In this document: positions 8,967 through 60,602 of the stretch, one piece after another | Layout: every line of letters starts with the position of its first letter | How positions within the stretch are numbered: the first letter of the stretch is position 1 | DNA from: an uncultured Clostridia bacterium | GTDB lineage: Bacteria; Bacillota; Clostridia; Christensenellales; UBA1242 | NCBI GenBank assembly: GCA_930979925.1 | Contig: CAKNIB010000005.1 | Coordinates: 19,091 to 83,090, forward strand | Reading direction: 5' to 3' | Length of the DNA stretch: 64,000 bases | Made by a program: the position numbers and the translations under genes | The notes under the pieces: generated by a model | The model's database searches: none | What the model saw: only the letters and a program-made list of their open reading frames with translations | What the model was told of the DNA's origin: nothing

Positions 8967-10394
8967 TTAAAGTCTTAAGTCTTTATACCTTTCTTTAACC
9001 ATATCGTAATCACGGCAAAGGGTTGGGATAGTCTGCGCAAGTGAGCGTGTCTTATATGGCAGTGGTATTACCGTAAGTCCATCAGGATTTTGTGGCGCTG
9101 GCTGAAAAGAAGGCTCGATGACCTCTTGCTCGTCGCCTGTAAGCTCCTCAATTTTAGTGGTATCCTTATGTAAAATTGGTTTCCATTTGACAGGTATAAA
9201 ACAGCTTAGAATTAAAAGTGGGATATTTATTAGGTCAAACCACGGCCAGCACAGAACATAAAATGCCTGTTTCCATTTTGAGCACTTGATGTGTTTTTGC
9301 TCCTTTATCAAGATTAAAATGCCTTGACCAAAGTTTGCAAGGTATGACGATAGTATTCCGCTACCTATTGCAGTGAGCCAGGTCACATATGGCAGAGCCT
9401 GATGGCTTGCAAGGGCAATAATCCCAGAGGTAATTGGATAGATTGCAGATATAACAAGTTTAAAAAGTGCATTTGGCGAGACGTAAGCTAACATATCATA
9501 GCAAGCCCACCTGCCATTCTTGCACCTAAAGATACCTTTAACAAGTCTTGTAAAGTATTTAAAGAAGACAACAAGTCGACCTCTTGTCCAGCGCATTCTT
9601 TGACGAAAGGCGACAAAAAAGTTGGTTGGCTGTTCGTCATAAAACTCAGCCTCTTCGCAGTAGACAATCTTGACGCCCTTTGACACGCAGTCCATAGTAA
9701 ATTCGGTATCTTCGGTCAAAGTGTGAAAGTGCCAGCCGTCGCGAAGAAGTTCGGAGGATATGCAGTAGCCGGTACCTGCAAGGTGGGTTGCCGAGCCTAT
9801 CAGCTGACGCGGTCTATGACGCGTCAGTATGCTTCGCCCGAAGTGAAGTCCATAGGCTGAGGATATCACGTTCGTTCCAAAGTTTTTCGTGTTTCGGTAG
9901 CCGACAGCGACCCCCCCCGAATTTTTTACCATGGCTTTGTTTATCTCGTGGACAAAGTTTGAATCCACCACATTGTCTGCGTCAAATATTATATAGCCAT
10001 CGTACGTCTCAATGCCATAGTCTCTTTTTATATTTTCAAATAAAAATTCTAGCGCCCAGCCCTTTCGAGCTTTACTTGGGTCAAATCTTTCATAGACTGT
10101 TGCACCTTTTGAGCGACAAATCTTTGCAGTATTATCAGTGCAGTTGTCGGCAACAACAAATATTTTTAATAGTTTTTTATCATAATTTTGTTTATTTAGT
10201 GAGTCAAGAAGATTGCCAATTACCTTCTCTTCATTTCTGGCAGAGATGACTATGGCGTATTTTTTCTTCTCGCCTGTCTCTTCAAACTTTTTGCTCTTAC
10301 CAAAGAAGCCAATGATAAGATAAATAACATTGTAGGCATAAAACAGCCCTAAAATTGTAATGATAATTGAGGTAACTGAGTTGAGTATGTCCAT
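8967..10394 (-). CDS. Membrane glycosyltransferase family 2
   Basis: VISARNEEKVIGNLLDSL, FDADNVVD, EDTEFTMD, RQRMRWTRGR (QxxRW); C-terminal TMs. Confidence 0.9.
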   Translation of the reverse strand: MDILNSVTSIIITILGLFYAYNVIYLIIGFFGKSKKFEETGEKKKYAIVISARNEEKVIGNLLDSLNKQNYDKKLLKIFVVADNCTDNTAKICRSKGATVYERFDPSKARKGWALEFLFENIKRDYGIETYDGYIIFDADNVVDSNFVHEINKAMVKNSGGVAVGYRNTKNFGTNVISSAYGLHFGRSILTRHRPRQLIGSATHLAGTGYCISSELLRDGWHFHTLTEDTEFTMDCVSKGVKIVYCEEAEFYDEQPTNFFVAFRQRMRWTRGRLVVFFKYFTRLVKGIFRCKNGRWACYDMLAYVSPNALFKLVISAIYPITSGIIALASHQALPYVTWLTAIGSGILSSYLANFGQGILILIKEQKHIKCSKWKQAFYVLCWPWFDLINIPLLILSCFIPVKWKPILHKDTTKIEELTGDEQEVIEPSFQPAPQNPDGLTVIPLPYKTRSLAQTIPTLCRDYDMVKERYKDLRL

Positions 10395-23665: not shown

Positions 23666-23780
23666 GCAACTCTTGGCTAGCTTTCTTTTTTCAAAAAAGA
23701 AAGCTAGCATTTTGTGGCAAACTTATGTTTGGCACAAAATAAAAGAGCCTAAAAAGTTTTTTGGCTCTTTCAAGAGTTGC
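23666..23780. repeat. Cloverleaf palindromic element, copy C
   Basis: Outer stem GCAACTCTTG(23666-23675)/CAAGAGTTGC(23771-23780); arms 23676-23708, 23709-23740, 23741-23770. Confidence 0.9.
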
Positions 23781-48976: not shown

Positions 48977-49813
48977 TTAAATTATAAATTCTATATTAGT
49001 ATCACTTGTTAAAATTAATTCAATGTTAGTATCATTCGTTACTGTTATTGTATCCTCACCATTTATACTTATATTTGTGCTACCGCTTCTACTGAGTATC
49101 TGTATAACCAATTCTCTAACGTCACTAATTGTTACTTTCATTTCGGTTATACCATAAAAGTTTTCCCATAAAACTTGTTCCAAAGTTCTATCCGCCTCTA
49201 CAACTTGTAACGCCGTTCCAATTGGTAGTTCTGTTGTTAAAGTGTAAGTTTTCCCTGCCAAACTTAATACAAAGTTAAAACTAAAATCTTGTATACTTGC
49301 AGATAAATTTTTATCTAAAACTTTAAATGTTATAACATATTCTACATATTCTTTTTCGGCTGTAGCGCTTGCTGGAATTGTTACACTATCTGGGGTTTCA
49401 CCATTTGCGGTGATTACAACTTCCATATTATCATATTGCCCTTGGATATTTTCAGGTGGTAATTTTACCAACAAATCTCTCTCGGCATGTGTATTGGTAA
49501 TAGTGAAAGATAAAGTCATATCTTCCCCACTTTCATTAAATGTCAAACTTAGATCAGTCCAAGTAGCAAGTTCGGCTGTACCATCATTAGTAGCATTAAG
49601 GGTAATCTCATGCATTTTATTTGCACTATCTGCAAGGATACCATTTGTTACAATACCTTGCGAAATCGTAGCTTGCACATCTAACGCTTCAAAAGACACT
49701 GAGCCACCAATATTAAGAGTTACTTGTTCTGCAGAAAAAACCGCTCCAAACATTATACCGAGTACTAGGATAAATGCAGAAATGCAAGATATTAATTTCA
49801 TTTTCATGCTCAT
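48977..49813 (-). CDS. Secreted protein of unknown function (signal peptide; beta-rich)
   Basis: MKMKLISCISAFILVLGIMFGAVFSAEQ signal peptide; no recognised domain. Confidence 0.65.
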   Translation of the reverse strand: MSMKMKLISCISAFILVLGIMFGAVFSAEQVTLNIGGSVSFEALDVQATISQGIVTNGILADSANKMHEITLNATNDGTAELATWTDLSLTFNESGEDMTLSFTITNTHAERDLLVKLPPENIQGQYDNMEVVITANGETPDSVTIPASATAEKEYVEYVITFKVLDKNLSASIQDFSFNFVLSLAGKTYTLTTELPIGTALQVVEADRTLEQVLWENFYGITEMKVTISDVRELVIQILSRSGSTNISINGEDTITVTNDTNIELILTSDTNIEFII

Positions 49814-50039
49814 ACTAATATATCCTCCTCTTTAGTATCTACATAATTAACTAAAAAATTCTACTTTTTAACAGTTTACACTAATATTATACTATTTTAA
49901 AATTTTGTTGTAATTTAGGTGACGTCACTATAGCGTCATTTTATATAACAAATTTTAAAAATTTAATATTTGCTAAATTTGCGCCTTCGGCGCGGGCTAA
50001 AAATTAGAAAAATTATATCTATATTTTTAGTGATACTTT

Positions 50040-50068
50040 ATATTACCCCCCCCTGAATTTTTTGTCAA
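50040..50068 (-). promoter_or_regulatory. Promoter with G8 tract in the spacer (TTGACA - 17 nt - TAATAT), copy 1
   Basis: Reverse complement TTGACA AAAAATTCAGGGGGGGG TAATAT, reading toward the 48977-49813 gene. Confidence 0.65.
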
Positions 50069-50165
50069 GCAAAATGACGGCAATTTTTAAATGTTTGGCA
50101 TTTTTTTGTTGCTGGGTATTATAATCTTATTTTTAGCATAAATTTTTAAACTTTATTTTATTATA

Positions 50166-50202
50166 CTAGATATTTTGTCTAGTGTAAAGATATTTTGTCT
50201 AG
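50166..50202 (+). promoter_or_regulatory. Candidate operator for the adjacent XRE regulator
   Basis: Palindrome CTAGAtattttgTCTAG (50166-50182) and repeat of agatattttgtctag at 50187-50202, 20-bp spacing. Confidence 0.5.
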
Positions 50203-50221
50203 TTTTGCATAAAATTTTTAT

Positions 50222-50427
50222 ATGGATAAAATTTTTTGTGACAATTTGAAATATTTAAGAAAAGAGTTGGACTTACGCAAAAGCAAGTGGCAAAAAAGCT
50301 CGGAGTTGTTGAAAGTTGTTATGCAAATTGGGAGCAAGGACGAACTGAGCCCTCTATTGCAATGCTTAGAAAACTATCTAAAATTTTTAAAGTTAGTATT
50401 GATGAAATGATAAATAATACCATTTAA
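50222..50427 (+). pseudogene. XRE-family HTH regulator with a 1-nt frameshift
   Basis: MDKIFCDNLKYLRKEL in frame 1, then GLTQKQVAKKLGVVESCYANWEQGRTEPSIAMLRKLSKIFKVSIDEMINNTI* in a shifted frame. Confidence 0.85.
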
Positions 50428-50556
50428 CTTATTTTTTAAATTATTCTTTTTATATTTAGGATTTTAACAAAAACAATAATATTTTTTTAAAATTTATTCT
50501 ATAAAAAAATAATGTATCTTTAATCTGTGATACATTATTTTTGTTTTTAAATATTT

Positions 50557-51279
50557 CTAATCTCGCTTCGTCCACATGAGCATTAGGAAGAGGAAACGGA
50601 GAAAGTATGCCATGGAGACTAAGAGTGAGGCCACATAAGTTAATGCGGCGGCGTTTAGTACTTTGTCTGTTGCCTGTACCTCGGCGTCTGAGGTAGCTCC
50701 TAAGCGAACGAGCATATCTTTTGCACGTGAAGAGGCGTTAACCTCGACAGGAAGAGTTACTAAATTGGCAATCACTGCCACTGCGTAGAGTGCAACTGAG
50801 ATATATATTACAAGTGGACCTGCAATGCCAAGTAAAAAGATTTGCAAAAGTATTCCTACAATTAAAAGTGGCATTAAAAGGCGAGAGACTAAGTTACTTA
50901 CCTTAACGACCGTCTGTCTAACCTTAAAAGGTGCATAATTTTCAGCATGTTGCATAGCGTGACCAAACTCATGTGCGACTACCGCTTGAGCAGCGATTGA
51001 CTTATTATTAAAATTTGCCTGCGAGATATTTATTGACTTATCTGTTGGGTCATAGTGGTCGGTTAGCTTGCCTTGACACTGTCTAACTTGAAGATAGAGA
51101 CCGGTCTCCTCTGAAAGTTTCTCGGCAAGTTCGGCGCCCGTCATGTCAAGAGAAGAGCCTAGCCTGCTATACTCGTCATAAGCGCTATTTACCTTGGTTT
51201 GTGCGACAAGTGCGATTATTATTGAAATTATTATTACTACGCCTGAGATGATGTATCCGATATAGTAGCCAAAATCCAT
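50557..51279 (-). CDS. YugP-like neutral zinc metallopeptidase (Zn_peptidase_2)
   Basis: VVAHEFGHAMQHAENYAPFKVRQ; C-terminal TMs. Confidence 0.88.
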   Translation of the reverse strand: MDFGYYIGYIISGVVIIISIIIALVAQTKVNSAYDEYSRLGSSLDMTGAELAEKLSEETGLYLQVRQCQGKLTDHYDPTDKSINISQANFNNKSIAAQAVVAHEFGHAMQHAENYAPFKVRQTVVKVSNLVSRLLMPLLIVGILLQIFLLGIAGPLVIYISVALYAVAVIANLVTLPVEVNASSRAKDMLVRLGATSDAEVQATDKVLNAAALTYVASLLVSMAYFLRFLFLMLMWTKRD

Positions 51280-51291
51280 ATAAACCTCCTT

Positions 51292-51999
51292 TTAAAAGAG
51301 CTTTGATTTTTTTGAGAGCATGGTCCAGCCTAAGATAGCCCTCAAGAAATCTGCCCAATATGTCAGCCTTGCGTCCTTTAAAAAGCGCTTGGCTTTTTTC
51401 ATTTCGTCATCTGTAAGATAGTCTTTGAGCATAACTATTGCCTTTTTTGATGCATCCTTCTCAATAGAAATTGTAAAAAGTTTATTAAAAAGTGCTAGTA
51501 GAAATATACCCCCGCCCACACCTAAGAGTACAAGCCCATAAGTCAAGAGTGATGGAAAAAAGAGAAGAACTACGCCAGCAATTAGTACAAGAGGTAGCAA
51601 CACGCCAAGAGCTTTGCCTAAAATTCTTAAGACTTTGAGGACTTTTAGTTTCTTGCCTTCGATGTCCTGTTTGGCGTGACCGAGCTCGTGTGCTACGATG
51701 GTGATTGAGGCAATAGAGCGACTATTTATCGTTTTAGTAGACAAAAATATCTTACCATTACTGTATGCGTCGCCTGCTAGTTGAGATATTTGGATAACCT
51801 TTATTTTATTTGAAAACGTCTTGTAATTTATCTCTCCTACAAAGTCAAGTGTAGTTAGTCCGGTTGAGACCATTTCTTTATCAAGTGCGTTATAGCGGTC
51901 TAAAAATCTGTCATAAGCATTATTTGCGATTGACAAAAGAAAGCAAAGAAGAACTGCGAAAGCTATAACTGCTATAATGATTATCCATGTTGTGCTCAT
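51292..51999 (-). CDS. YugP-like neutral zinc metallopeptidase paralogue
   Basis: IVAHELGHAKQDIEGKKLKVL; same architecture as the neighbouring ORF. Confidence 0.82.
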   Translation of the reverse strand: MSTTWIIIIAVIAFAVLLCFLLSIANNAYDRFLDRYNALDKEMVSTGLTTLDFVGEINYKTFSNKIKVIQISQLAGDAYSNGKIFLSTKTINSRSIASITIVAHELGHAKQDIEGKKLKVLKVLRILGKALGVLLPLVLIAGVVLLFFPSLLTYGLVLLGVGGGIFLLALFNKLFTISIEKDASKKAIVMLKDYLTDDEMKKAKRFLKDARLTYWADFLRAILGWTMLSKKSKLF

Positions 52000-52100
52000 G
52001 ATAATATTGTATATTTTTTAAAGAAAATTATCAAGTGATTGATTGAAATTTGATAAAAATAACCTTTTTTAGAGCGAAAATACCTATTTCTATTTAAAAT

Positions 52101-53996
52101 TTAAGTTATTAACACTATGGTTGTGCCTACCTGGATTGAGGTGTTTGGAGGTGGAAGCTGAGCGGTTACATATTCGCCCTCGCCGTCTAGCTCGTAGTAA
52201 AGACCGATTTTCTTAAGCTCTACCGCGGCGTCAGTTAGGCTTAGTCCGACAAGGTTCGGCATTGTTACATACTCGGTCACAACGCTTGGGTCCTGCTTTT
52301 CTTCGTTTAAATAATCAAATAGCTCTGTGAAAATTATTTTGCCATATGGCGCTGCAACTATGCTTCCATAGTAAGCGCCTGCTCCTGGCTCGTCAACCAT
52401 GACAAAAACAAGATATTCTGGATTATCTGCCGGATAAGTGCCTATAAAACTTGAGATATATTTGCCTTGGTCTATACCTCCGCTCTCGCTATACTTTTGT
52501 GCGGTACCCGTCTTGCCACCAACATTGTAACCCTCGACAAATGTATATTTACCTGTTTTATTTTCTGCCCCTTCAAGAAGACTGTTGACTATTGCCGAGG
52601 TCTGCGCGCTTACCAAGTTTTGAGTGCGAGTGGTGCTTTCAAACTCGGTTGTCTCGCTATCCTTTGACACAGACTTTAATATGCGAGGCTGGTTATACGT
52701 TCCGCCATTGATTATACCAGCTACCGCCGTCAAAAGCTGGATAGGAGTAAGAGCGACTGCATGACCAAAGCCCATTCTAGCAAGGTCGACATTTTTGACA
52801 AGCGACTTTGCCATCAGCATTCCACTGCCCTCGCCCGCTATATCAATTCCCGTTTTAACGCCTAAGCCAAACTTTGTCATATACTCATAAAAACGGTCAA
52901 CACCAAGCCTTAGTGCAAGGTCCATAAAGCAACAGTTGCAAGAGTTTGAAAAAGCTTCGGCTAGTGTCTGATTGCCATGACCTATCGTTCTCCAGCATCG
53001 TATGCGGACACCGTCTATTATCCTGTAACCTGGGCAATAGAAGGTATCATCCAAACTGCATACGCCAGCCTCCAAAGCGGCAGCAACCGTTAAAATCTTG
53101 AAAGTAGAGCCGGGCTCATAGATATCGGTGACAAGTTTTACTCGGCTTTGGTCAAAGAGCGCCTCAAGGTCATCACGTGGAACATCATTGAGGTCAAAGC
53201 TTGGCTTATTGGACAGCGCCAAAATCTCCCCCGTCTTGGCATTCATTATCATGCCGGCAACCCCTTTTGCTTTCTGCTCTTCCATGATTTGCTCAAGAGT
53301 TTGCTCAACTATCAGTTGCATTTTACTGTCTATGGTCAGCGTCAAATTACTACCCGCGCTTGCTGGATAGTAGTACCTTAGGCTACCACCTATCTCTTTA
53401 CCTTGAAGGTCGCTTTGCACATAGCTATAGCCGTCACTGCCTTTGAGATAATCATTGTAGTACGCTTCGACCCCTGTCTGTCCCACATTATCAACGCTGA
53501 TAAAGCCTAAAACTTGAGTGAGTAGGTTGCCATTTGGATAATATCTATCACTATTCTCGGCAAGATACACTCCGTCTAGTTTGTAATTATATATAATCTC
53601 GGCAGTTTCTCCGTCTACCTGCATTTTAATAAGCACTTCGCTTACCTTTCTATTTGACACTTTTTGATAAACGGTAGAAAAATCAAGGTCTAATGTCTGA
53701 GAGAGAAGAGTTGCTGTCTTACTTGGTGAAGTTACCTCTCTTGCTCTGACATAGACATTGTAAGTTGTGTAACTGACAGCGAGCGTCGAGCCCGTCCTAT
53801 CATATATACTGCCACGTGGTGCAACTATGGCAAGGTCTCTTGTCCACTGGTCAGTTGCGCGAAGTTGAAGGCTGGAACCATTTACTATCTGCAAGACAAA
53901 CAGCCTTACCACAAGAGCACAAAAAATAAAGGATATACACAGTAGCACTGCGAGTATCCTTTTTTTAAGTGAAAATAATGTAAAATATTTTTGCAA
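52101..53996 (-). CDS. Penicillin-binding transpeptidase with C-terminal PASTA (FtsI/SpoVD-like)
   Basis: IYEPGSTFKILT (SxxK), SNS motif (AFSNSCNCCF), GKTGTAQ (KTG); PASTA-like C-terminus. Confidence 0.94.
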   Translation of the reverse strand: MQKYFTLFSLKKRILAVLLCISFIFCALVVRLFVLQIVNGSSLQLRATDQWTRDLAIVAPRGSIYDRTGSTLAVSYTTYNVYVRAREVTSPSKTATLLSQTLDLDFSTVYQKVSNRKVSEVLIKMQVDGETAEIIYNYKLDGVYLAENSDRYYPNGNLLTQVLGFISVDNVGQTGVEAYYNDYLKGSDGYSYVQSDLQGKEIGGSLRYYYPASAGSNLTLTIDSKMQLIVEQTLEQIMEEQKAKGVAGMIMNAKTGEILALSNKPSFDLNDVPRDDLEALFDQSRVKLVTDIYEPGSTFKILTVAAALEAGVCSLDDTFYCPGYRIIDGVRIRCWRTIGHGNQTLAEAFSNSCNCCFMDLALRLGVDRFYEYMTKFGLGVKTGIDIAGEGSGMLMAKSLVKNVDLARMGFGHAVALTPIQLLTAVAGIINGGTYNQPRILKSVSKDSETTEFESTTRTQNLVSAQTSAIVNSLLEGAENKTGKYTFVEGYNVGGKTGTAQKYSESGGIDQGKYISSFIGTYPADNPEYLVFVMVDEPGAGAYYGSIVAAPYGKIIFTELFDYLNEEKQDPSVVTEYVTMPNLVGLSLTDAAVELKKIGLYYELDGEGEYVTAQLPPPNTSIQVGTTIVLIT

Positions 53997-53998
53997 GG

Positions 53999-54790
53999 CT
54001 ATCCTCCAATTAGACCTGCTATGAAATTACAAAAACGGTCAAACCAGTTGGATTGCTCGTCAATTAAGTTAGGTGGCAAAGGGTCGGTCGGTATAGTCTG
54101 AAAAAGATTTTCCATGTTTTGCGAGTTTGTGGCGTCAAGGTTATGAAGGTTATTGAGATAGGATATTAAATTCATGTTATACTCGGTTGTTATATCACTT
54201 ATCTGACTTCCTAGCGAGTCAAGTGTGGTGATGTTTATAATACCCCATATGCCAAAGATGGCAAATAAAATTGAAAAAAGAATAACCTTAAATTTATTTG
54301 CCTTTGGTTTTGCCTCCTCTTCCGGCTTCTCCTCGGTGAAAATACGCTCTCTTTGCTCTGGCGACAAGGTTTCTATAAAATCATAGTTGGGTTTTTCTAT
54401 TATCAAAGAGTTACTTGCCTGAGGTTGACTTTGCACTGCCTCCTGACTTTCAACTTCTTTTGCAAGGTTGTGAATAGAGGCATGTTTCTCGTCAATACGC
54501 CTAATAAGAGGGTCATCTTTGTCTTCTACCACGTAAAAAGGTTTTGCCCTTGACCTCGATTTAGTTGACTTTTCATCCTGCCCGCCTACAGTGGTTTGAT
54601 TTTGCTGTTTGATTTGGTAGGTTTGACGAGGCGCTTGAGGTTGAGCCTGGTTTTTAGGTTGACTTTCTACCTCTTTTTGATAGTTTCCTTTTTGTGCTAA
54701 ATAGCCCTCTTCAATTTGCTTCTTTTGCTCTTTCTTATTTTCAGCAAGTAAGGTCTTCTCTTCCATATTATATTTACCTCCTTCCTGCAA
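53999..54790 (-). CDS. Hypothetical single-pass membrane protein at the ftsL position
   Basis: Charged/Gln-rich N-terminus then TM KVILFSILFAIFGIWGIINITTLDSLGSQISDIT; between rsmH and the PBP. Confidence 0.55.
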   Translation of the reverse strand: MQEGGKYNMEEKTLLAENKKEQKKQIEEGYLAQKGNYQKEVESQPKNQAQPQAPRQTYQIKQQNQTTVGGQDEKSTKSRSRAKPFYVVEDKDDPLIRRIDEKHASIHNLAKEVESQEAVQSQPQASNSLIIEKPNYDFIETLSPEQRERIFTEEKPEEEAKPKANKFKVILFSILFAIFGIWGIINITTLDSLGSQISDITTEYNMNLISYLNNLHNLDATNSQNMENLFQTIPTDPLPPNLIDEQSNWFDRFCNFIAGLIGG

Positions 54791-54878
54791 TATTACATTA
54801 GCTTAAATTGTAAAAATTAAAAATATATTAAAAATTTTTATCAAAAAACACAAAATTTAAACTTTTTTTGCAATTTTT

Positions 54879-55814
54879 CTATAATTTTTCAATAATTCTC
54901 AGTTTTGCACTGCTTGAGCGAGAGTTTTCTCTCACTTCCTCCTCGCTTGCTATAATTGGCTTTTTGTTTATTAATTTTATTGAGCGTTTGTGACCGCAAA
55001 TGCAAACAGGGATTTTTGGTGGGCAAAGGCAATCGGTAGCCTCCTCTTTGAATACATTTTTTACTATTCTGTCCTCAAGGCTATGAAAGGTTATGACTGC
55101 CATTCTCCCGCCATTTTTTAGCATTTTTATAAATTTTTTGAGGACTTCATCTAGTCCATCAAGCTCGCCGTTGACCTCTATTCTAATAGCCTGAAAGGTC
55201 TTCTTTGACACGCCACCCTTGCCATAGATGACCTTTTTTGGAAAGCTTTCCTCTATTATCTCTTTTAATTGCAAAGTAGTCTCTATTGGCGCTTTTTCGC
55301 GATGTTTTAATATATTTTCAACTATTTTTTTTGCATTGCTCTCTTCGCCATACTTATAAAGAATATCTAAAAGTCTTTCTTTTGGGTAATGATTTACAAC
55401 CTCGTAAGCGTCAAGGTCTTGTTTCTTGTCCATGCGCATATCAAGTCTGCCTTCATGAAGAAAGCTAAAACCTCGCCCTGCCGTATCTATTTGATAGGAG
55501 CTCACGCCAAGGTCAATGAGAAGTCCGTCAAAACTTTTAATGCCCTTCTCCTGCAAAATCATTGGTGCGTCTTTATAGTTTGCATGGATTAATGTTACAT
55601 TTTTATTATCTTTAAAACGCTCTTGACAGGTTGAGATTGCCTCCTCGTCTCTATCAAAACCGTAGAGGTGACCCTCTGGAGATAGCCTTTTGACTATCTC
55701 AGAGGAGTGTCCGCCACCGCCTATGGTGCAATCTATGTAAATGCCATTTTTCTTTATGTCTAGACCCTCTACCACCTCGTTAAGTAAAACGGGTATATGT
55801 TTAAATTCGCTCAT
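54879..55814 (-). CDS. rsmH: 16S rRNA (cytosine1402-N4)-methyltransferase
   Basis: HIPVLLNEVVEGL, DCTIGGGGHS, DLGVSSYQID, GRMAVITFHSLEDRIVK. Confidence 0.96.
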   Translation of the reverse strand: MSEFKHIPVLLNEVVEGLDIKKNGIYIDCTIGGGGHSSEIVKRLSPEGHLYGFDRDEEAISTCQERFKDNKNVTLIHANYKDAPMILQEKGIKSFDGLLIDLGVSSYQIDTAGRGFSFLHEGRLDMRMDKKQDLDAYEVVNHYPKERLLDILYKYGEESNAKKIVENILKHREKAPIETTLQLKEIIEESFPKKVIYGKGGVSKKTFQAIRIEVNGELDGLDEVLKKFIKMLKNGGRMAVITFHSLEDRIVKNVFKEEATDCLCPPKIPVCICGHKRSIKLINKKPIIASEEEVRENSRSSSAKLRIIEKL

Positions 55815-55823
55815 CTTTTGTAC

Positions 55824-58373
55824 CTATAATTGTTCGAGCTGAGAAAGAAGCTCAAATAATTCTGTAAAGTCTATATTTGGATAGTTTGTCTCGTCTAGTA
55901 TTTCGTTTACTCTGCCGGACGTGTCTTTTGCAATCTCTTCTGCGTACTCATCTTTTAGTGATTGCAAGAAGTTATCAAAGATGCCTTTAAATACACCTTC
56001 TTCGCTCTTGCCAGCAAGTGTCACTCTGTATGCGTTCTGTTGCATGCTTGTAAGAAAGTCTCCTAGTAGAGTTTTATCGACATTACGTAAGGTCTCATTT
56101 GTATAGCTTTCATTGATAGCTATAAAGCTTGCAAATACCTCACAAATCTCGTCTGCTTGGTCCTCGCTGTTTCCTTCTACTAAAGTTATAGCAGAAAGGT
56201 CAATAGTGTTGACGCCTCCTGTCAAGCTGTTTGCAATCTCTACAAGGCTATCAAAGATTGAGGTTTTAAGATTTGATGTTGATTTTGCGTAAAGCACTGG
56301 TTTGATAACTTGTGGAAGTTCCTCGGCGCTTACGTTATTTAAAATTGTGTCAATCTCACCTTTCAGTGCATACTCAAGGTAGCTTGTGCCCTCATATGAA
56401 AGAGTGTTGAGGGTTACTAGAAGGTTTGAGATGTAATTTAAGTCGCCCTGCCAGTCCTCATAAGTATTCAGAGTGCTAAAGTCTACAATATCGTTTTGTA
56501 TGGTCTTTATCATCTCGTCTACAATAAGTGTCTTTGTTGGCTCAACTTGAGTAAGTGGAAGAATAACCTCGCTAAGAAGGTTTTCGTTGCCTTCCTGTGA
56601 GAGCACATTTGCAAGGCTTGACATCATTGAAAGAGTATCTGATGTGTTATTGAAAATATCATATAGGTCATTTTCTTTAACTGTAACTAAAACTGGGCTT
56701 AAAAAGTCAAATAGTCCGCTGTATGAGTCTATTGTCACGCTTTGACCTTGAGCGTCTTTGACAGGCTCTTGTGGAAGAGTTATATTATTTTCTTCAAGCA
56801 TTCTATCGATTATTGAGCCACCTGAGGTAGTTTGGAATAATTTGATGCTTCTAATCTCATCAATTAAGCTTCCTACCCCTGTCAAAGCATTTGTCAGCTG
56901 AGCGCTTGTATATTCATCGCCTATGAGTATGGTTGGGTCTGATACTACATCCATGATATTAGCATCTTGCGACAGGTCTCTATAGTCTTTCAAAAGGTTT
57001 ACAACTGACGAAGATAGGTCGTCCCAATCTTGCTCGCTCCATGTGCTTGTGTCAGTGTTGATATCGTCGACATCTTCAAGCATGCTTTGAAGAGCTATTT
57101 TTGTAATAGGTCCTATTGCATCTCTTACAATATTTACATCTAGTGCGCTATTTAATGCTTCCTCTGATGTGGTTATATTGGAATCCGCAACCAAGATATC
57201 AAGCACTTGATTTAAACTATCCTCACCACTTACCGTCACCATTTGGTCAAGCATACCGCTCTGACCTAGCACTTTTACAGTGCTAAACATCTCTTTTACG
57301 TCGTGTATAAAATAGCTTTCAAGCATTACATGATTTTCTGAGTACTGGGCAAGGCTTGTCTGTAGCGATGAGAACACCTCACGCACGTTTTCGTCATCAA
57401 CCAAACTGTCAAGAAAAGAATATTCTTGATAATTTTGTATGATATCGTTTGCAAGGTCAACAACTATTCCTTTAAATAGTCCGCCGTCTACGAAAGAGTT
57501 TACATACTCCTCTAACTTTTCGTAATCAAAATTAGCAAAGGTTATATCTTGCTCTTCGCTCTGCATTTGATAGACAAAATTTGCTATTGGATAGATTGTT
57601 TCAATTTCCTTTCTGATGTATACATTATTGTCCTCAACCTTGACCTTTGAAAAATAGTCAAAGGTTGCATTGTCAAGTCCGAAAACTCCACATATTTTTA
57701 TAAGTGCATTGTTTTCAAGTCCAGTTAAAATCTCGTCAAGCTCGGTTGGAACATTGTCGGCTATAATAGAAGCGTTTAGGTTTTGAGCACCCATCTCGCT
57801 TGATGAGTCAACGCTCACCATAAAGCTCTCATTTGTTTTTAATGTGTCATAGACGCCGATTAGTCCGGCAAGTGGCATAAAAGCAAAGAGTGTTAAGAGG
57901 AAGGTCTTGACAAGTCCAACACCTGCACCCCACCATCTGTGTTTGCTCTCGTCCTCTTTTGGCTTTAATGCAGTTGAGGCTACTATTCTATATATTATAT
58001 AGATTACAAGCTCAATTGCAAGGGTCACCAAAATAAATACAACGGTATTTGCAAGCGCTCCCGGCAGACCTTGTATTAAAGTTGCGATGTTAGGATTTCT
58101 GTCAATTAGTGAGGCTATTGTTTGGTCATCTCTTAACATCTCAACCAGCATTTGATTTAAAGTTGTCGGCTGTCCGTCATATGTGACCTGTATACCCATT
58201 ATCGCATTAGTTATGGCAGGTGTCACAAAAAAGGCAACAAGTATGCCTACCACTGAAAATATAAGGTTTGCTGTTGACTTTTTAAGTCCTCGCCAAAAGC
58301 CCACAAAAAAGCCGGCTATAAGTATTACTATAAAAAATACTGATACTATCCATGCAATCGCTGTCGCGCTCAT
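55824..58373 (-). CDS. Large membrane protein with CvpA-like N-terminal TM region, 849 aa
   Basis: GFFVGFWRGLKKSTANLIFSVVGILVAFFVTPAI; further TMs; long helical C-terminus. Confidence 0.65.
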   Translation of the reverse strand: MSATAIAWIVSVFFIVILIAGFFVGFWRGLKKSTANLIFSVVGILVAFFVTPAITNAIMGIQVTYDGQPTTLNQMLVEMLRDDQTIASLIDRNPNIATLIQGLPGALANTVVFILVTLAIELVIYIIYRIVASTALKPKEDESKHRWWGAGVGLVKTFLLTLFAFMPLAGLIGVYDTLKTNESFMVSVDSSSEMGAQNLNASIIADNVPTELDEILTGLENNALIKICGVFGLDNATFDYFSKVKVEDNNVYIRKEIETIYPIANFVYQMQSEEQDITFANFDYEKLEEYVNSFVDGGLFKGIVVDLANDIIQNYQEYSFLDSLVDDENVREVFSSLQTSLAQYSENHVMLESYFIHDVKEMFSTVKVLGQSGMLDQMVTVSGEDSLNQVLDILVADSNITTSEEALNSALDVNIVRDAIGPITKIALQSMLEDVDDINTDTSTWSEQDWDDLSSSVVNLLKDYRDLSQDANIMDVVSDPTILIGDEYTSAQLTNALTGVGSLIDEIRSIKLFQTTSGGSIIDRMLEENNITLPQEPVKDAQGQSVTIDSYSGLFDFLSPVLVTVKENDLYDIFNNTSDTLSMMSSLANVLSQEGNENLLSEVILPLTQVEPTKTLIVDEMIKTIQNDIVDFSTLNTYEDWQGDLNYISNLLVTLNTLSYEGTSYLEYALKGEIDTILNNVSAEELPQVIKPVLYAKSTSNLKTSIFDSLVEIANSLTGGVNTIDLSAITLVEGNSEDQADEICEVFASFIAINESYTNETLRNVDKTLLGDFLTSMQQNAYRVTLAGKSEEGVFKGIFDNFLQSLKDEYAEEIAKDTSGRVNEILDETNYPNIDFTELFELLSQLEQL

Positions 58374-58465
58374 ATTTATCTCCTTTTCTATATAATAACA
58401 TTTTTGACAATAATTTCTAAAATTATTTTAAATATTTTCATAATTTTTATCAAATTTTTTGTCAA

Positions 58466-58515
58466 TTAAAAAAGAGGTAAGATATTAACTAGAAATAAAC
58501 AAACCTCTTTTGCTA
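58466..58515 (-). terminator. Terminator hairpin after metG
   Basis: aaaagaggtaaga...aaacctctttt. Confidence 0.55.
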
Positions 58516-58539
58516 TAATTTAACTGTCAAAAATTAGAT

Positions 58540-60144
58540 TTATGCAAGAGTTGAAAGCTCTTCAAGTTCTTTCTGCACGTCAAGTCTTGGGAAGAGTATT
58601 CCAAGGTCTTTGAGTGGCTGTCCTGCTTTAAGTCCATTGAAATTATCAAGGTTTGCAAACTCATTGCCTTCAATATTGAGCGCATCAAGCACCTTTCTAG
58701 ATGCAATTGGTGCGAAAGGCTCAAAAAGCTCACTGCCTATTCTAATAGTTTCAAGAAGGTTGCGGAGAATTGTCTTTAGGCGAGTCTGTCCGCCCTCTTG
58801 TTTTGCCACCGCCCATGGTTGAACCTTTTGGATATAGGTATTTGCCTCGGTAAAGATATTAAATATAGCAGTTGTTGCCTTGGTAACATCAAATTTCTCC
58901 ATTGCCTCAAAGGTAGCTTTCACTTGACTGTCAACAATTTCTTTGAGGTTGAGGTCATCTGGGTCTGTTAGGCTGTTACTTTCTGGGATAACACCGTCAA
59001 AATATTTCTTAACCATGCTAAAGGTTCGAGATACAAGATTGCCGTAATTGTTTGATAAATCTGCATTAAATCTTGTTAAAAACGCCTCGGTTGAGTAGTT
59101 ACCGTCTGAGCCGAAAGGTATTTCGCGGTACAGAAAATAGCGGACTGCGTCTGATGAGTATCTTGGAGCAAGAATTCGTGGGTCTACGCATTCTTTTACG
59201 CCAGCATCTTTGCTCTTTGATAATTTATCGCCACCAAACATTATCCATCCATGTCCAAAGATATGTTTTGGTAGTGGAAGCTCAAGTGCCATCAATATTG
59301 CCGGCCAAACGATGGCATGGAAACGAACGATTTCCTTGCCTATCATATGTACGTCAGCAGGCCAATACCTTTTGAAAAGGCTGTCGTCCTCGCTACCATA
59401 GCCAAGTGCAGTGATATAGTTTGGAAGAGCGTCTATCCATACATAAATTGTGTGTTTTGGGTCAAACTCCACAGGCACTCCCCACTTGACAGAGGTACGT
59501 GAAACGCAGAGGTCGCTAAGACCAGGTTTGATAAAGTTGTTGACCATTTCGTTGACTCTTGACTTTGGCTGTAAAAAGTCAGGTTGGTCTTCATAGAGTT
59601 TTATAAGTCTATCAGCAAACGCTGAGAGTTTGAAAAAGTAAGCCTCTTCTTCTTGAAACATAACATCTCTTCCGCAATCTGGACACTTGCCATTAACAAG
59701 CTGGCTCTCTGTCCAAAAAGACTCGCATGGCGTGCAGTACCAACCCTTGTAACTGCCCTTGTAAATATATCCTTTTTCATAGAGCTGAGTGAAAATCTTT
59801 TGCACTGCCTTCTCGTGGTAGTCGTCAGTCGTTCTTATAAACTTATCATATGAGATGTTAAGAAGTGACCAAAGCTCTTTTGCGTCTGCAATCATGCCGT
59901 CAAGGTACTCTTTCTCGCTCTTGCCAGCCACTGCTGCCGCCTGAGAAATCTTTTGACCATGCTCGTCAGTTCCGGTAAGATAAAATACATCCTTGCCCAT
60001 CTTGCGATTAAAACGAGCTATAGCGTCACAAATAAAATTTGTATAGGCGTTGCCTAAAGTAAACTTATTGCTTGGATAATAAATAGGTGTGGTGATATAA
60101 AACTTTTCTTTCATAAATTCTCCTAAGTGAGTAAATAATAGCAC
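58540..60144 (-). CDS. metG: Methionyl-tRNA synthetase
   Basis: FYITTPIYYPSNKFTLGNAYT; YLTGTDEHGQKI; CTPCESFWTESQLVNGKCPDCGR; KLSKSKDAG. Confidence 0.95.
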   Translation of the reverse strand: MLLFTHLGEFMKEKFYITTPIYYPSNKFTLGNAYTNFICDAIARFNRKMGKDVFYLTGTDEHGQKISQAAAVAGKSEKEYLDGMIADAKELWSLLNISYDKFIRTTDDYHEKAVQKIFTQLYEKGYIYKGSYKGWYCTPCESFWTESQLVNGKCPDCGRDVMFQEEEAYFFKLSAFADRLIKLYEDQPDFLQPKSRVNEMVNNFIKPGLSDLCVSRTSVKWGVPVEFDPKHTIYVWIDALPNYITALGYGSEDDSLFKRYWPADVHMIGKEIVRFHAIVWPAILMALELPLPKHIFGHGWIMFGGDKLSKSKDAGVKECVDPRILAPRYSSDAVRYFLYREIPFGSDGNYSTEAFLTRFNADLSNNYGNLVSRTFSMVKKYFDGVIPESNSLTDPDDLNLKEIVDSQVKATFEAMEKFDVTKATTAIFNIFTEANTYIQKVQPWAVAKQEGGQTRLKTILRNLLETIRIGSELFEPFAPIASRKVLDALNIEGNEFANLDNFNGLKAGQPLKDLGILFPRLDVQKELEELSTLA

Positions 60145-60254
60145 AAAACCTATCCAATGTCAAATAAATAAGAGCCAACCTGCAATTACAACATAAAAAA
60201 TCAAGCAACCTATGTTTTTGTAACAAAAGATACATTTCTATAAAAAGTTAATTT

Positions 60255-60281
60255 ATTGTACCCCCCCCGACTTTTTGTCAA
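60255..60281 (-). promoter_or_regulatory. Promoter-like repeat with G8 tract (TTGACA - 15 nt - TACAAT), copy 2
   Basis: Reverse complement TTGACA AAAAGTCGGGGGGGG TACAAT; shares flanking sequence with the copy at 50040. Confidence 0.55.
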
Positions 60282-60324
60282 GTAAAATGACGGCATTTTT
60301 AAAAGTTTGTTAAAAATATTTTAA

Positions 60325-60490
60325 TACACCCCTTGCGGGTCCGCATTTGCACCCGCAAAACCATATGGTTTTGTGGGAACCCGGTGGGAGGGAAACCAAA
60401 AGCACTGTGAGCGTCTTTCGCTAAAAGTGTGGTCCATAGCGGTTAGGCTTGAACCGTGCCCGCGTTATGGATTTGATGTCACCCAAATGT
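60325..60490. ncRNA. Candidate structured ncRNA or structured repeat, GC-rich against an AT-rich background
   Basis: TTGCGGGT..ACCCGCAA; AACCATATGGTT; CACTgtGAGCGtctttCGCTaaaAGTG; CCATAgCGGTTaggcttgAACCGtgcccgcgtTATGG; no coding potential seen. Confidence 0.4.
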
Positions 60491-60602
60491 GAGTCTTGCC
60501 TACTTTTCGTTTTTCAAAAACGAAAAGTATAATGCTGTGGCAATCTTTGATTGACACAGCATAAAAGAGCCCGAAAAGTTTTTCGGGCTCTTTGCAAGCC
60601 TC
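60491..60602. repeat. Cloverleaf palindromic element, copy D
   Basis: Outer stem GAGTCTTGC(60491-60499)/GCAAGCCTC(60594-60602); arms 60501-60529, 60532-60562, 60563-60593. Confidence 0.9.

Follow-up and report, generated by a model that had tools for sequence, protein, structure and literature searches.

We suggest that a multigene surface-protein family of this uncultured Clostridia bacterium is subject to slippage-type transcriptional phase variation at poly-G promoters of the sigma-A type; we put the probability of this reading at about 0.78. In the proposed mechanism the -35/-10 spacer carries a slippery poly-G run, and replication would gain or lose a G, so that the spacer would move between about 15 and 18 nt. 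Such a shift around the optimum would raise or lower transcription. The family consists of dispersed genes for secreted proteins, mostly of the BspA-LRR kind; each gene, having a poly-G promoter of its own, would switch independently, and cells would come to carry different surface-protein mixtures. The first-pass annotation was limited to the window (the whole analysed stretch of 64,000 nucleotides), a view in which the scale of the system, that is, the multigene family, could not be seen.

In the window the minus strand carries two homologous modules built of TTGACA, a spacer with G8 and a -10 element, just as the first-pass annotation had described them (Table 1). The spacer lengths that it gave, 17 nt for copy 1 and 15 nt for copy 2, are matched by the coordinates; the spacer is composed of AAAAATTCA and G8 in copy 1 and of AAAAGTC and G8 in copy 2. 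Homology between the copies extends for approximately 25 nt further upstream, over the boxes listed in the table. The pattern TTGACA-N5-11-G7 occurs at these two places, and 100 dinucleotide shuffles gave no match. Copy 1 indeed faces a secreted-protein gene, whose 278-aa product has no Pfam domain above the cut-off and a predicted structure of low confidence (pLDDT 52.5). Judged by its 17-nt spacer, copy 1 is predicted to be in the strong state. Copy 2 had been described as facing metG, which has its own closer promoter. Both the gene and that promoter are present downstream; however, metG lies outside the secreted family, and copy 2 is best read as an orphan promoter before metG, not as its regulator.

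Table 1. Features of the window around the two poly-G promoters (positions in the window)
Feature	Position	Strand	Remarks
Copy 1 promoter	50040..50068	-	TTGACA (50068-50063), 17-nt spacer with G8 (50053-50046), TAATAT (50045-50040)
Copy 1 conserved upstream box	50069..50091	-	AAAATTGCCGTCATTTTGC; conserved by the consensus of 23 genome copies
Copy 1 gene 5' leader	49814..50039	-	initial part common to other copies
Copy 1 gene	48977..49813	-	secreted protein, 278 aa, N-terminal family member
Copy 2 promoter	60255..60281	-	TTGACA (60281-60276), 15-nt spacer with G8 (60268-60261), TACAAT (60260-60255); orphan, without a family gene downstream
Copy 2 conserved upstream box	60282..60304	-	
metG own promoter	60135..60163	-	TTGACA-17-TATTAT
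metG	58540..60114	-	methionyl-tRNA synthetase; start taken at MKEKFYITTPI
Hairpin-rich dispersed repeat	60310..60600	+	directly upstream of copy 2

The source genome (1.13 Mb, 29 contigs, 97% complete) contains 23 copies of the motif TTGACA, 7-9 nt, G7-10, TAnnAT, and none of the reversed control pattern. The two modules of the window thus belong to a larger set and are not an isolated pair. The promoter is of the sigma-70/A type, with the homopolymer run inside its -35/-10 spacer, and 23 of the 25 distinct runs of at least seven Gs in the genome fall within this motif. Across the copies the runs are 7-10 Gs long and the spacers 15-18 nt, most copies combining G8 with a spacer of 16; the upstream box is also conserved among the 23. 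One of the two long G runs outside promoters is a G8 at 9911-9918 of the window, inside a glycosyltransferase-like gene (8967-10394, minus strand). The homologue of this gene in another genome of the genus (G066, locus L391, 52% identical) has a poly-G spacer promoter instead, and the G8 inside the gene is a possible second switch, which would be translational.

We read the gene downstream of each of the 23 copies. Eighteen promoters face one secreted family and are located 87 to 506 nt before the gene. The common N-terminus of the family is MSxKxKLISxISAFILVLGxxIxGVLAAxxQTIxxxGSVNFNV..., and a census returned 20 such N-termini, whose 18 strong matches are exactly the promoter-bearing ones. 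The other two are C7:39476, an intact gene (206 aa) with the ordinary promoter TTGACA, 18 nt, TAAAAT and without a G run, and C13:6248, a broken gene. Hence, 18 of the 19 intact members possess their own promoter tract, as in vlp-type families; the genes of the present family are dispersed over many contigs, in contrast to the clustered poly-A lipoprotein locus of that type. Many members have C-terminal BspA-type LRR modules; among the others there are InlB-type B repeats, a weak match to DUF6273 and proteins without a known domain. The N-terminal helix and the LRR modules point to a surface location; the aligned N-termini have no lipobox cysteine.

Five of the 23 copies face no intact family gene. 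Besides copy 2 of the window (C5:79351), these are C13:1588, before a family gene without its N-terminus; C28:34, at a contig end; C16:11277, which precedes pcrA and whose upstream region is orthologous to that of a CALVMK poly-G promoter; and C3:38801, before the gene of an Asn-rich protein whose C-terminal part includes a hydrophobic stretch. At an extra site, C6:24604, an interrupted tract (GGGGAGGG) stands before a family-gene start that has decayed. The orphan copies include remnants of family genes, and from these parallels we infer that copy 2 lost its own.

The lengths of the tract and of the spacer vary in a restricted manner. Among 101 sites the spacer is 15, 16, 17 and 18 nt long in 22, 52, 17 and 5 cases, so that 96 sites scatter around the functional optimum within 15-18 nt. 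A non-G part of 7 nt is mostly accompanied by G9 and one of 8 nt by G8 (permutation p = 0.003, with paralogues that are not independent); total spacer length is therefore held while its parts trade off. Homologous genes have G runs of 6 to 12 and spacers of 15 to 18 nt, and tract or spacer length differs both between paralogues and between orthologues. For example, the CAJFOL orthologue of the copy 1 site, with an upstream peptidase 80% identical, has a spacer of 16 versus 17 nt. The copies of G048 and G076 were rejected as a strain-level tract comparison, since they belong to paralogous blocks, not to orthologous sites; viral_contigs, searched for such a comparison, gave no match. Presumably, the tract slips within the population and transcription responds, with consequences at the cell surface.

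The poly-G architecture is not confined to the source genome. The pattern TTGACN6-12G7N0-2TA is found in 28 of the 61 genomes of the genus, with control matches almost nil. Some of these genomes carry an expanded family (18 members in G008, 12 in G041, 27 in G048, 10 in G068, 33 in G071 and 34 in G076), and in front of the homologous genes in these six genomes the poly-G run still adjoins the -10 element, with the other spacer bases changed. The rest of the spacer is species-specific (for example, AAAAGGGC, AAAAATGC, TGGGTTGC, TTTTGC and AAATGCCAAT), and the upstream box likewise differs between species while the G run persists. For some family genes in G071, G076, G068 and G074 the tract is absent from the stretch examined; several G071 tracts are located just outside it. 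In G059, where the search used did not find the family, the same architecture precedes other, unrelated secreted proteins; G066 has it before lipoproteins and a glycosyltransferase, and G014 before a second family of secreted proteins, which carry DUF285 repeats. Phase variation, raised as a possibility in the first-pass annotation for slippery-G spacer promoters, is thus supported by the concentration of G runs in the motif and its link to the secreted family, by spacer compensation, by the reappearance of the motif in another species ahead of surface genes of unrelated kinds and by the length differences between paralogues and orthologues.

In G048 (L182-L201) and G008 (L044-L066) many promoters continue straight into an almost perfect palindrome, TAAAATAGGGTATCCAAAATAAATTTTGGATACCCTATTTTA, of which the -10 element is a part; it is possibly an operator or a 5' hairpin. 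A scan of public genomes gave similar promoters in other phyla, often ahead of secreted proteins. In Streptococcus suis DE406T (L266, L280) two genes of secreted-type proteins have a poly-G spacer promoter, with G9 and G12. Metagenome-assembled genomes of gut Alphaproteobacteria carry repeated CTTGACAAAAA-N-CG7-11-TAAA[AC]T promoters (L222, L229, L233, L258, L275, L284, L285, L296, L300, L309), and the orthologous pair L296/L309 has G8 versus G7 at 88.6% upstream identity. A literature search on the lineage name returned a chicken-gut survey only.

The G run might instead be an invariant structural element of a promoter common to the family, for example one recognized by a regulator or a special sigma factor, in which case the family would be co-regulated and not phase-variable. 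The identical G8 and 16-nt spacer of most genome copies, together with the conserved upstream box, fit this. However, we consider it unlikely, as a fixed spacer does not need a homopolymer, the runs and spacers of homologous genes vary over the ranges given above, and between species it is the non-G spacer and the upstream box that change while the run persists and recurs before unrelated genes. The phase-variation reading has its own difficulties: at G8 the modal tract is rather short for slippage at a high rate, MutS is present, some family genes of other genomes have no tract in the stretch examined, and the modal spacer of 16 nt is still an acceptable promoter spacing, which makes the off state putative. 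Loss of mismatch repair was rejected as the driver, since all 61 genomes have MutS.

Two further explanations draw on the blocks that paralogues share. These begin 38-65 nt upstream of the -35 element (in one case about 225 nt upstream) and continue through the leader and sometimes into the N-terminus, so that promoter, leader and N-terminus travel together. Close to many copies lie hairpin-rich repeats: the one upstream of copy 2 has 27 genome matches, most of them just upstream of poly-G promoters on the other strand and some of them within the leader, and no match in Rfam. The same repeat is also seen at about 23671-23774 of the window. The modules could hence be the conserved end of duplicated cassettes or of a repeat element, with the G run as a by-product of recent copying. 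This is improbable, because diverged species retain the run although their other spacer bases have changed, unrelated secreted genes have it as well, and total spacer length is held. A mobile-element end or a simple repeat was rejected on similar grounds: although the shared blocks resemble cassette duplications, the G run is still found after species divergence and also ahead of unrelated genes. Blocks common to family members would also be expected if the G run folded into a quadruplex and thereby initiated gene conversion between them, as the Neisseria pilE signal does. We regard this as very improbable, given that the aligned copies have a single run of G7-10, not the several quadruplex-capable runs of the pilE type, with no neighbouring G runs, so that an intramolecular quadruplex is not expected; moreover, the run is placed exactly within the spacer, at a length that preserves the promoter distance.

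If slippage-type phase variation is accepted, it may extend to a genome-wide surface lottery, a reading that we hold tentatively, at somewhat less than even odds. Several species would each have 17 to 24 poly-G promoters that slip independently and whose spacers rest approximately one G short of the optimum; only a few of the proteins would then be strongly on per cell, and different species would have fitted the same switch to unrelated secreted families.

Promoter-slippage phase variation is known mainly from a few pathogen genes. In porA of Neisseria meningitidis, where the slippage mechanism is supported, the poly-G run lies between the -35 and -10 elements (PMC3899988); as proposed here, one-G changes alter the spacer and a surface protein is controlled. 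However, porA is a single gene, whereas here about two dozen promoters belong to a dispersed paralogous family of a Clostridia lineage. Treponema pallidum tp0126 has poly-G in the spacer with 17 nt as the best length, and within isolates the poly-G upstream of tprL is variable in length (PMC7864442). The likeness is in tracts of ~7-11 Gs in promoters of outer-surface proteins, several tpr paralogues included (PMC7864442). Unlike here, the run is near the transcription start in the tpr genes, and length variation and activity were measured in Treponema, whereas here they are predicted from sequence. The vlp genes of Mycoplasma hyorhinis have a poly-A tract in every promoter (PMC10502178), likewise one homopolymer for each surface-family member, but they encode lipoproteins, whereas our family has poly-G, is mostly without a lipobox and is dispersed. 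Candidatus Mycoplasma girerdii resembles our bacterium in its reduced genome, its many BspA-like surface proteins and repeat-length switching, which was seen there in metagenome reads; the repeats are dinucleotides in coding sequence, acting on translation, rather than in promoter spacers (PMC5476646). In Bifidobacterium breve, also a gut commensal, G-tract slippage controls a surface structure, the pilus (PMC9187656), but as an intragenic, translational switch at two loci.

Here, poly-G promoters appear to be the chief means of control over a large surface-protein family in an uncultured gut commensal with a reduced genome, and the same layout returns across the genus ahead of surface genes of unrelated kinds. 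In this way commensals would be able to change their surface in response to phage or host immunity with no need of invertible promoters.
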